A DNA stretch of 64,000 nucleotides, from NCBI GenBank assembly GCA_015709675.1, contig CP054182.1:2645448-2709447 (forward strand), written 5' to 3'. Source of the DNA: Ignavibacteriales bacterium. GTDB taxonomy: Bacteria > Bacteroidota > Ignavibacteria > Ignavibacteriales > Ignavibacteriaceae. The notes beneath the pieces are model-generated. The model saw nothing but the letters and a program-made list of their open reading frames with translations. It was not told where the DNA came from and made no database searches. This document shows positions 36,404 to 56,162 of this stretch, piece by piece; the first letter of the stretch is position 1; each line of letters begins with the position of its first letter. The position numbers were made by a program, and so were the translations under genes.

Positions 36404-37759
36404 CTATTCTCCTTTTTCTATGCCATATTTTTTCATTTTGTTGTAGAGGTGGCTCCGCTGAATCTCAAGCAGCTCTGCTGTTTTTGAAACATTCCATCCG
36501 TTTGCCTCAAGCTGCTTCAGGATAAATGCTTTTTCGGCTTTTTCCTTAAAATCCTGGAACGAGTTGCTCTGGTCAATTAAATCATTGATGGACTGTTTTT
36601 CATAAGGGAGCAGACTTTCCAGGTCACTTTTCTGAATCACCGGTTTGTCAATAATGATGATGATCCGCTCAACAATGTTTCTCAATTCACGGATGTTTCC
36701 TTTCCAGGGGAGCTGCTTCATCAGCTCGATGGCATCGTTTGAAAAATGTTTGGTTTTCTTTTTATACTTTTCTGAAATTCTTTCCGTGAAAGCTTTTACC
36801 AGAATGGGTATATCCTCAGTCCTTTCCCTGAGCGGGGGGATTACGATGGGGATTACATTCAGCCGGTGGAATAAATCTTCCCTGAAGTTGCCTTTTTCAA
36901 TTTCTTCTTTCAGATTTTTATTCGTTGCGCTTATGATCCTCACATCAACTTCGGTTTTTTTATTTCCCCCTACTTTTTCAACTTTTCCTTCTTCTATGAT
37001 GCGTAAAACCTTTGCCTGTGCCTGAAGTGACATATCTCCAATTTCATCAAGGAATAGCGTGCCTTTATGGGCAAGTTCAAATTTACCGGTTTTATTTTGT
37101 ATTGCACCGGTGAAGGCGCCTTTTTCGTGCCCAAAAAGTTCTGACTCAATCAGCTCATTTGGTATGGCTGCACAATTAATGTCAACATAGGGGGAGTTTT
37201 TCCTCTGGCTCATTTCATGAATTGCCTTGGCAACCAGCTCCTTGCCGGTACCATTTTCGCCGGTAATAAATACTCGCACATCGGTTTCGGCAACTTTGGC
37301 TATAAGGTCTAATACCTTTTTTATGGCAGAGCTTTCCCCCAGGATTTTTGTGTCAGAAAGAGATTCAATCCTAAGACGTTCATTTTCCCGCGCCAGATTA
37401 ATCTGAGAAAGAGCATTGCGGACCGTTATAAGAAGTTTGTCGCGGTCAATCGGTTTTTCGAGGAAGTCAAAAGCCCCAAGCCGGGTTGCCTGCACTGCAT
37501 TCTGAATATTTCCGTATGCTGAGATCATTACCACCGGCAGGGCAGGGTGAACTGCTTTAATCTGCTGCAGGATTTCAAATCCGTTTGAGTTGCCCATCTG
37601 GATATCCAGCAGCACCATATCGTAAGCTTCTTCACTCAGAACTGAAGGCGCCAGATTGCCGTCATTGATATATCCGGCGGTGTAATCTTCAAATTCAAGA
37701 ATCAGCTTTATGCTTTCGCAGATTTCTTTTTCGTCGTCAACTATCAGGATTCGGTTCAT
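36404..37759 (-). CDS. Sigma-54-dependent response regulator (NtrC family)
   Basis: A 451-residue regulator with three domains. The receiver (about 1-120) has the phospho-acceptor D52 and acidic pair D8/D9. The AAA+ domain has Walker A GENGTGKE, the sigma-54 contact loop GAFTGA and Walker [10 protein letters not shown] Fis-type helix-turn-helix lies at the C-terminus ([19 protein letters not shown]). It activates sigma-54 promoters on phosphorylation. No histidine kinase gene is near. It overlaps the exported-protein gene by 4 bases. Confidence 0.94.
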
Positions 37760-38409
37760 AGATAAAAAAACAGATGATAAATATTATAACCGGTTATAAA
37801 TACCGAGGGCACGGTCTTTTGTGAGAGCAGATGCCAGCCATAACGCACGCCAAGTTCGTTTATGTTTACATCACGCAAATCAATATCGGCTTCGGTATTA
37901 AAGTTTTTTTCGAATAACTCTACAAAGTTACCAAAAAAGCGTACAACGCTGTTACTTCGCATCCGGTAAGCAGCCGAAGCATTTCCAAAAAAATGGGCTA
38001 ATTTGTCAGCATCTCCAAAATGATCGGCGGGGGAGTCAAAAAGAAATCGCCGGGGGATGTTTCTGTTTTTTGCGTCATACGTGGTCAGATCAGCAGCAGG
38101 AAGCGGATAACGGAGGGTACCCAGCCCGAAGGGAAGCTCCATGGGAACCTCCCGGTAGGGTATAAGTGTAAAACAGAGAACCAGGAGCGCTTCAGCGGCG
38201 TCATCAGGATACATAGTATCCGCTTTTATAAAGAGGGAGTCAATAAGTTCAAGTTCGGTCAGGCCCGGGTTACTCACCGTGTCAACTCCTGCCAGATATT
38301 CTGAAAGCCGGTCTATGCTAAGACCAAGCTGGCTTCTGTTTTGCGGTTCTGCCGTGTCCTGTAAAAGCAGGAGAAGCTGGCAGAAAATAAAAAAGGTGAG
38401 TGACCTTAT
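37756..38409 (-). CDS. Hypothetical exported protein, likely non-canonical (AUA) start
   Basis: The frame runs open from just after the carboxylase stop and gives about 217 residues. A GTG at 38277 is the first ordinary start, but it would discard an obvious signal peptide (FFIFCQLLLLLQDTA) encoded in frame upstream. No ATG, GTG or TTG precedes that peptide. ATA at 38409 overlaps the upstream TAA (ATAA) and has GGAG 10 bases before it; ATT at 38388 is another option. The mature protein is unrecognised; it contains DKLAHFFGNASAAY and ends in an aromatic-rich tail. It is coupled to the regulator gene by a 4-base overlap. Confidence 0.6.
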   Translation of the reverse strand: MRSLTFFIFCQLLLLLQDTAEPQNRSQLGLSIDRLSEYLAGVDTVSNPGLTELELIDSLFIKADTMYPDDAAEALLVLCFTLIPYREVPMELPFGLGTLRYPLPAADLTTYDAKNRNIPRRFLFDSPADHFGDADKLAHFFGNASAAYRMRSNSVVRFFGNFVELFEKNFNTEADIDLRDVNINELGVRYGWHLLSQKTVPSVFITGYNIYHLFFYL

Positions 38410-54405: not shown

Positions 54406-54819
54406 ATGTTAGCTGATTACTGCAAAATTTTGTCTGATGTTAAATCAATAGCCGTTGTTGGCATTTCTGACAAGCCTGAAAGAGACAGCGGTGCAATTGC
54501 AAAAATGCTTAAGGAAAAAGGATTTACGATCTACGGTGTTCATCCGGTACTTAAGGAAGTGTTTGGCATTCCTGTATATCCATCACTTGCGGAATTACCA
54601 GAAAAAGTTGACCTGGTTGATGTATTTCTTTCATCTGATAAAGTACCTGCCATTCTTAAAGGAGTTCAAAAATCAGGAGCTAGGTATCTCTGGCTCCAGC
54701 TGGGAGTATCAAGTAACGAAGCTGAACAGTTTTGTTCTTCTGAAAAAATAGGTTTCGTACAGAACCGTTGCATAGCGGTTGAATACAGAAACTGTAATGC
54801 ACTCAAAGGACTTCTCTGA
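54406..54819 (+). CDS. CoA-binding protein (YccU-like)
   Basis: A 137-residue Rossmann-fold protein of the CoA_binding_2 family: IAVVGISDKPERDSG binds the nucleotide, then GVHPVLKE, DLVDVFLSSDKVP, LWLQLGV and FVQNRCIAVEY. I chose ATG 54406 because an upstream in-frame start lies within gcvP. Homologues bind acyl-CoA or CoA but have no settled role. It is coupled to the next gene (TGATA). Confidence 0.88.
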   Translation: MLADYCKILSDVKSIAVVGISDKPERDSGAIAKMLKEKGFTIYGVHPVLKEVFGIPVYPSLAELPEKVDLVDVFLSSDKVPAILKGVQKSGARYLWLQLGVSSNEAEQFCSSEKIGFVQNRCIAVEYRNCNALKGLL

Positions 54820-56162
54820 TAAGAACCTTTGTACTCTTACTTTTCTTATTATGTTGCAGCTTTTCCCGGAGCAATGCAGACACTGTAGTTGAGAATAAAA
54901 CTCCCCCGGCAGACTCTCTCAATTCCGGTTATACGGTTATTGATTCAATATTCATAAGCGGGAATGATATAACCATTGAAGAAATCATTCTTAAGGAACT
55001 TCCGTTTACTACAGGGGATACAATTCAGGTAAACCGGCTCTTCTTTTTTGAAGAAAGAGTTTTCAGTCTTGGTATATTCAATGACGTAAAAATGCGTCTC
55101 AAGAAATCAGAGACAAAGACCATTCTGCATATTCATGTTGATGAAAGCTGGTATATCTATCCTCTCCCTTTTGTTGATTTCAAGGAAAATGACTGGAGCA
55201 AGATTTCTTACGGAATGAATATTCTCATCAAAAACTTCCGGGGAAGAAACGAGGATTTATCATTTTCATTCGGACTTGGGTATGATCCGTTTTATTCCGC
55301 TACTTATATAAAACCCTATCTGGTACGCAGCCAGAATATCAGTCTTTATTTTTATTCGCAGTATGCAACCGTATCAAATAAAAGTCTGCAGGCTGAAGCT
55401 ATTGCAGGTACTAAATTCGATAATACTGTTTTTACATTTGATATTGGTTTAGGTAAAAGGTTCGATATTTATAATAAACTTGAAGTTTTTACCAGTTACC
55501 GGATGATAAAATCACCATTTGCCATAAAAGGAATTACGGCATCGGGGAAAGAGACAGATATCGTGCCAGCCTTGGCGTTCCAGTATTCACACGATTCCCG
55601 CGATCTGAAGCAATTCCCTGACAGGGGATTGTTTTATTCCGTTTCTTCTTTCTACTATGGTTTCAACATTGATGATGTTAGTTATACTGCCTTTAACAGC
55701 GATTTCAGATACTACTTTCCGCTGATCTCCTCTTTTACTGGAAAAATAAGATTAGCTACCCGTCAGAGATATGGTAAAAATATTCCTTATTATAACTACG
55801 CTTTTATCGGACTGGATGATGAGGTCAGGGGACATATCACTGACAGAGCTGAAGGGAAAAAAAGCTATGTAGGGTCATTTGAAATAAAATACCCGATCAT
55901 TCCGATGTTTGATTTGTTCCTGGATCTTCCGCTGATTCCCAGACAGCTTCAGCAGGCAAAAACTGCACTCTATCTTACGCTTTTTGCTGATGCCGGATTT
56001 GTCCAGAATGATGGTATTTCTGTAAACTGGGCCAGTGTTTATTCAGGTTATGGGGTAGGAATTGCCATTCCCGCGCTCCCATTTAATTTGGGCAGGATCG
56101 AATATGCAATCAATAAATTTGGAAAAGGAGAACTGATACTTGATCTCGGCATCTCCTTCTGA
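54819..56162 (+). CDS. Omp85/BamA-like outer-membrane protein with one POTRA domain, AUA start likely
   Basis: The frame encodes about 447 residues: signal peptide (IRTFVLLLFLLCCSFS), one POTRA-like domain (about 42-105, SIFISGNDITIEEIILKEL to GIFNDVKMRL) and a 16-strand-type barrel ending in Phe (DLGISF). The first in-frame ATG is 55092, which would cut off the signal peptide and most of the POTRA. No ATG, GTG or TTG precedes the signal peptide. ATA at 54819 overlaps the upstream TGA exactly where a coupled ATG is expected, with AAAGGA about 8 bases before; CTG at 54816 is the alternative. It may insert or secrete outer-membrane proteins. Confidence 0.75.
   Translation: MRTFVLLLFLLCCSFSRSNADTVVENKTPPADSLNSGYTVIDSIFISGNDITIEEIILKELPFTTGDTIQVNRLFFFEERVFSLGIFNDVKMRLKKSETKTILHIHVDESWYIYPLPFVDFKENDWSKISYGMNILIKNFRGRNEDLSFSFGLGYDPFYSATYIKPYLVRSQNISLYFYSQYATVSNKSLQAEAIAGTKFDNTVFTFDIGLGKRFDIYNKLEVFTSYRMIKSPFAIKGITASGKETDIVPALAFQYSHDSRDLKQFPDRGLFYSVSSFYYGFNIDDVSYTAFNSDFRYYFPLISSFTGKIRLATRQRYGKNIPYYNYAFIGLDDEVRGHITDRAEGKKSYVGSFEIKYPIIPMFDLFLDLPLIPRQLQQAKTALYLTLFADAGFVQNDGISVNWASVYSGYGVGIAIPALPFNLGRIEYAINKFGKGELILDLGISF

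Follow-up and report, generated by a model that had tools for sequence, protein, structure and literature searches.

The locus

Where does translation begin in a gene whose N-terminus is translated and which has no ATG, GTG or TTG to start it? This question is raised by an Omp85-like gene in the 4.21 Mb single-contig genome (G000) of an Ignavibacteriales bacterium. The gene lies at 54816-56162 on the plus strand of the window, by which we mean the whole stretch of 64,000 nucleotides analysed (genome positions 2645448-2709447). The comparisons described here suggest that it is probably translated from the CTG at 54816-54818, with the ATA at 54819-54821 read as codon 2 (Ile).

The closest relative found, the MAG Ignavibacteriaceae bacterium SJ115 (L002/G001; hereafter the sister species), is collinear with positions 35615-64000 of the window, where nucleotide identity is 78%, and shares 76% amino acid identity in the Omp85-like protein. 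It was the only other member of the genus returned by the searches, and the genus is sampled here by these two genomes. The gene order at the locus is gcvP, a CoA_binding_2 protein gene (PF13380; 54406-54819, plus strand), the Omp85-like gene, an RsmE-like methyltransferase gene and SSB. For the CoA-binding gene, a start at 54406 was preferred over 54316 by a by-eye comparison with the sister sequence; its stop codon, TGA at 54817-54819, shares bases with the start proposed for the Omp85-like gene.

The Omp85-like product is a single-POTRA outer-membrane protein of 448 aa. Its match to the POTRA model PF07244 is above the cut-off (E 4.7e-06, residues 40-109 counted from the ATA), while the barrel is matched by two models below their cut-offs, the BamA model TIGR03303 (E 3.3e-21, residues 41-417, 75.3 bits against a cut-off of 297.15) and the Omp85_fam model NF047779 (E 5e-09). 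These matches place the protein in the Omp85/BamA superfamily, at a TIGR03303 score short of that required of a BamA equivalog. Like the BamA/Omp85 outer-membrane assembly proteins, it has a POTRA and a C-terminal region matching the BamA model; unlike them, it has one matched POTRA, is 448 aa in length and lies under the equivalog cut-off.

The start codon of the Omp85-like gene

No stop interrupts the reading frame between 54798 and the terminal stop codon, whose last base is 56162, and the first in-frame ATG, GTG or TTG is the ATG at 55092-55094 (codon offset 98). A signal-peptide-like stretch and most of the POTRA match lie upstream of this ATG, which is residue 92 in the numbering of the match. 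The first-pass annotation had correctly described this arrangement: CTG 54816 and ATA 54819 as the only start-like codons, the POTRA and signal peptide encoded 5' of the first ATG, a TGA/ATA overlap, and AAAGGA about 8 bases before the ATA. The Shine-Dalgarno-like AAAGGA occupies 54805-54810, within the 3' end of the CoA-binding gene, at spacings of 8 nt to the ATA and 5 nt to the CTG; the sister species reads AAGGGA at the aligned position.

The same annotation took the ATA as the apparent start; CTG is the better fit to orthologue N-termini, to the constant GTG of another genus, to gene overlaps and to other apparent CTG starts in this genome. A family match was found in 139 of the 146 genomes searched, about half of which were read, giving 70 orthologue loci (30, including this gene and that of the sister species, and 40 further). 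A fixed rule assigned ATG to 45 of these, TTG to 10 and GTG to 7, left 6 with no start and found no anchor in 2; it misplaced some starts, as in L020, where it chose a TTG farther downstream despite the presence of GTG-ATA. Four distant orthologues (L021, L069, L071 and L073) have no ATG, GTG or TTG before the signal peptide and may use CTG, ATT or ATC. In the 62 proteins with an assigned start, residue 2 is Ile in 19 and residues 2-3 are Ile-Lys/Arg in 15, as compared with Arg at residue 2 in 7 and Arg-Thr or Arg-Ile at residues 2-3 in 3. In the Omp85-like gene the two residues following CTG are Ile-Arg and those following ATA are Arg-Thr; for this gene and its sister-species counterpart, initiation at ATA would yield Arg-Thr or Arg-Ile as the second and third residues. 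Across the orthologues ATA falls at the position of residue 2 more frequently than at that of residue 1. The rows are related rather than independent (L016 and L017 hardly differ), and the N-terminus argument would favour CTG modestly, by a small factor only.

Genus g26 has GTG at the matching place in 5/5 genomes read, codon 2 being ATA in L019, L020 and L027 and TTA or CTA in L089 and L091. Since this genus keeps the NTG and varies codon 2, CTG is again favoured, modestly. The CTGA at 54816 also fits the 4-nt overlap pattern of the genome: among 607 sampled genes, and with coincidental frames included, ATG, GTG or TTG stands at a 4-nt overlap in 58 and ATG at a 1-nt overlap in 25. From these comparisons we infer that CTG is to be preferred over ATA, against two considerations. 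A distance of 8 nt from AAAGGA, as for the ATA, is no less usual than the 5 nt found for the CTG, and CUG initiates poorly in E. coli, with 0.86% of the output of AUG, and is rare in bacteria, making up 0.024% of starts, according to the accessible part of PMC11497404; both figures count against the CTG reading.

The alternative that fares best, although we consider it unlikely, is that ATA 54819 is the start, in a 1-nt overlap (TGATA) giving fMet-Arg-Thr-Phe, and that the genus initiates several genes at AUA, AUU or AUC under IF3 control. The spacing of 8 nt and the conservation of the ATA in the sister species agree with it, as do three genes discussed below: a minus-strand gene whose ATA at 38409 has no better competitor, a hydrolase whose ATA (L136:47) is replaced by ATT in the sister species, with GGAG 7 nt ahead of either codon, and infC, which begins with ATC in both species. 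AUA starts are, in addition, documented in Staphylococcus aureus in the part of PMC13009471 available. A start at the ATA is opposed by the residues that would follow it, Arg-Thr or Arg-Ile in 3/62 orthologues against Ile-Lys/Arg in 15, by the constant GTG and variable codon 2 of genus g26, and by the apparent CTG starts elsewhere in the genome.

It is very improbable that the product starts at ATG 55092 and that the upstream part is untranslated. This ATG is the first usual start in frame, and the signal-peptide part before it is poorly conserved (13/37 residues identical to the sister species), but the POTRA part upstream of it is identical at 40/52 residues, and a protein begun there would be without its signal peptide and the greater part of the POTRA. 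Over the 89 aligned codons upstream of 55092, differences from the sister species number 29/25/55 at codon positions 1/2/3, a third-position bias with a binomial p of 1.6e-4 for the whole upstream stretch and 1.1e-4 for the POTRA part. By this comparison, with its clustering of differences at third codon positions, the codons before 55092 are translated. The coding signal 5' of the first ATG, GTG or TTG ranks first among the 607 sampled gene-like ORFs (51.5).

At the junction the sister species reads TTCTGATAAGAA, with the same CTGATA; neither candidate codon is disrupted in either species, and the rare codon is conserved in 2/2 genomes of the genus. The run CTGATAAGAA is identical in the two despite a difference (CTC/TTC) in the last sense codon of the upstream gene; at 11 bases this identity is unremarkable alone, because longer identical runs occur elsewhere in the Omp85-like gene. 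A single base separates either CTG or ATA from ATG, and a mutated or miscalled ATG had been put forward, but that the real codon is an ATG at 54816 or 54819, miscalled or recently mutated, is hardly credible given the identical CTGATA in a separately assembled genome with 76% amino acid identity.

Apparent ATA, ATT and ATC starts elsewhere

The first-pass annotation had counted two independent genes with ATA starts and had suggested that the organism tolerates AUA initiation. Its other gene is most likely the minus-strand ORF 38436-37756, an exported-looking protein without a Pfam or NCBIfam match at E 0.01. The ATA at 38409-38407 overlaps a TAA at 38408-38406, and the ATA and its flanks are identical in the sister species. 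A start at this ATA (gene 37756-38409, minus strand) yields a signal peptide similar in length to that of relatives starting with ATG (L096, L099, L100). The ATAA derives from the Thr-stop end of the upstream carboxyltransferase gene (PF01039), and the overlap alone therefore proves little; ATA 38409 nevertheless survives as the apparent best start of this gene.

An alpha/beta hydrolase gene (L136:35-934, from about 2220035) has no usual start near its N-terminus. In the alignment an ATA of this genome is matched by ATT in the sister species, and in both a GGAG precedes the codon at a distance of 7 nt; a nearby CTG is not conserved, and the ATC immediately 5' of the ATA could also be the start. 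As judged by reading the sequences, infC apparently begins with ATC in this genome and in 10/12 Ignavibacteria-type genomes overall (L001, L115-L125). L124 looks to have ATT and L118 is unclear, and L125, one of the ten with ATC, has a TTG two codons earlier.

The count of two independent ATA genes overstates the evidence, the Omp85-like gene being better read from CTG, and this gene is not evidence for an AUA-start organism. The suggestion of AUA tolerance draws some support from the ATA at 38409, from the hydrolase and from infC.

The initiation machinery

A change in IF3 had been named as something to look for. At the one position compared, which we take to be E. coli Arg99, none particular to the genus was seen, the residue being His in 12/12 Ignavibacteria-type proteins read. 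An altered initiator tRNA was not seen either, the intact copy having the GGG/CCC anticodon stem and a CAT anticodon. Decayed-looking partial copies adjoin the intact initiator tRNA (L153, G000:C1:3620137-3620504), and the sister genome G001 has a second initiator tRNA copy (L154) with an insertion in the D-arm region that is otherwise complete-looking.

A proposed mechanism and known systems

Re-initiation at an overlapping stop and start with a nearby Shine-Dalgarno sequence is ordinary translational coupling. We propose that ribosomes finishing the CoA-binding gene would be held by AAAGGA and would re-initiate on the CTG with fMet-tRNA at low efficiency, giving a product that begins fMet-Ile-Arg-Thr-Phe and carries the signal peptide. 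With so weak a codon, output would be expected to stay low and to be subject to IF3 discrimination; coupling, low output and IF3 sensitivity of the Omp85-like gene are thus predictions from its sequence.

Repression of non-canonical starts by IF3 is described in the accessible part of PMC5472188, where the tested cases are sigR of Streptomyces (GTC) and infC, the latter starting with ATT in E. coli and ATC in Streptomyces with IF3 autoregulation. As far as that part of the source goes, sigR resembles the Omp85-like gene in having a weak start in a translationally coupled pair, with low output expected, and differs in being a sigma factor gene with an experimentally shown GTC, whereas here CTG is assigned to an envelope gene by sequence comparison. 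The weak infC starts described there are likewise shared by relatives, and infC apparently begins with ATC in this genome also; they are tied to IF3 autoregulation, while an action of IF3 on the Omp85-like gene would be an extrapolation. In S. aureus, the available portion of PMC13009471 reports conserved AUU/AUA starts in cvfC1, ccpN and infC with about 10-30% of AUG output. These are also conserved non-NTG starts before otherwise ordinary genes, but in that portion they come with extended Shine-Dalgarno sequences, ribosome profiling and reporter data, in contrast to the shorter AAAGGA and the CTG here. A literature search combining Ignavibacteri* with start codon returned no title on non-canonical starts. 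Non-canonical starts are already published for Streptomyces, E. coli and Staphylococcus, and the locus is most likely a moderately unusual case, a putative conserved CTG start.

Other apparent CTG starts in the genome

Further CTG starts in this genome appear well supported by comparison with relatives. A YacP-type NYN gene (NYN_YacP, L042:16771) has CTG where the sister species has ATG, and MurJ (L047, minus strand, 11210) has CTG in both species and ATG in G008 and G026. A glycosyltransferase gene (PF13439, L037:17466) reads CTG-AAA-AAA-GTT here, CTG-AAC-AAA-GTT in the sister species and ATG-AAA-AAA-GTT at the matching place in G008, G009 and G026. Its CTG follows GGAG and overlaps the upstream stop as CTGA; the case is not clean, because five codons before this CTG the present genome has an in-frame TTG, a codon that reads CTG in the sister species.

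A scan for ORFs with coding signal 5' of their first usual start found three CTG genes (Omp85, MurJ and NYN) among the 607 genes sampled from this genome. Applied to 400 kb each of G026 (322 genes) and G009 (301 genes), it gave no recognised CTG start among the hits listed; hit L188 in G026 and genes L200 and L203 in G009 were left without an assigned start. The glycosyltransferase came from an overlap listing rather than from the scan. A tally of overlaps gave 17 seeming CTG starts, 15 of which have ATG or GTG within 1-4 codons, leaving the Omp85-like gene and the glycosyltransferase. A Fisher test on 4/607 against 0/623 gives 0.059; this value leans towards a difference and is not to be used, because the fourth gene came from a listing run on this genome only. 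An excess of CTG starts in this genus over G026 and G009 is suggestive only.

It is possible, if doubtful, that the genus has a standing set of genes started at CUG or at AUA/AUU, about 0.5-1% of its genes, with low, IF3-dependent output and several of them acting in the envelope (Omp85, MurJ, the glycosyltransferase and the exported-looking protein). Such a frequency would clearly exceed the 0.024% that CUG is reported to contribute to bacterial starts. The use of rare start codons to hold protein output down is known, and if the weak starts were regulatory, they would provide a natural set of CUG/AUA-started genes with which to test why CUG is avoided elsewhere, in a background of ordinary-looking IF3 and initiator tRNA. 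Gene finders that accept ATG, GTG and TTG only would cut the signal peptide and most of the POTRA from the Omp85-like protein, and would also mis-start other genes of the genus.

Several scan hits fell outside these groups. An RmlD-family gene in G009 (PF04321, L198:17748-18644) has ATC, which is not a usual start, before its N-terminus KILVTGVGGFLGQ. In this genome, two other strong hits, L144 (DUF218/ElyC-like) and L131, were set aside, and L035 and L041, short ORFs of 84 and 80 codons, may be spurious. Two minus-strand hits, L036:9039-8455 and L040:19406-18957, combine an upstream coding signal with truncated-looking N-termini and are perhaps frameshifted genes.
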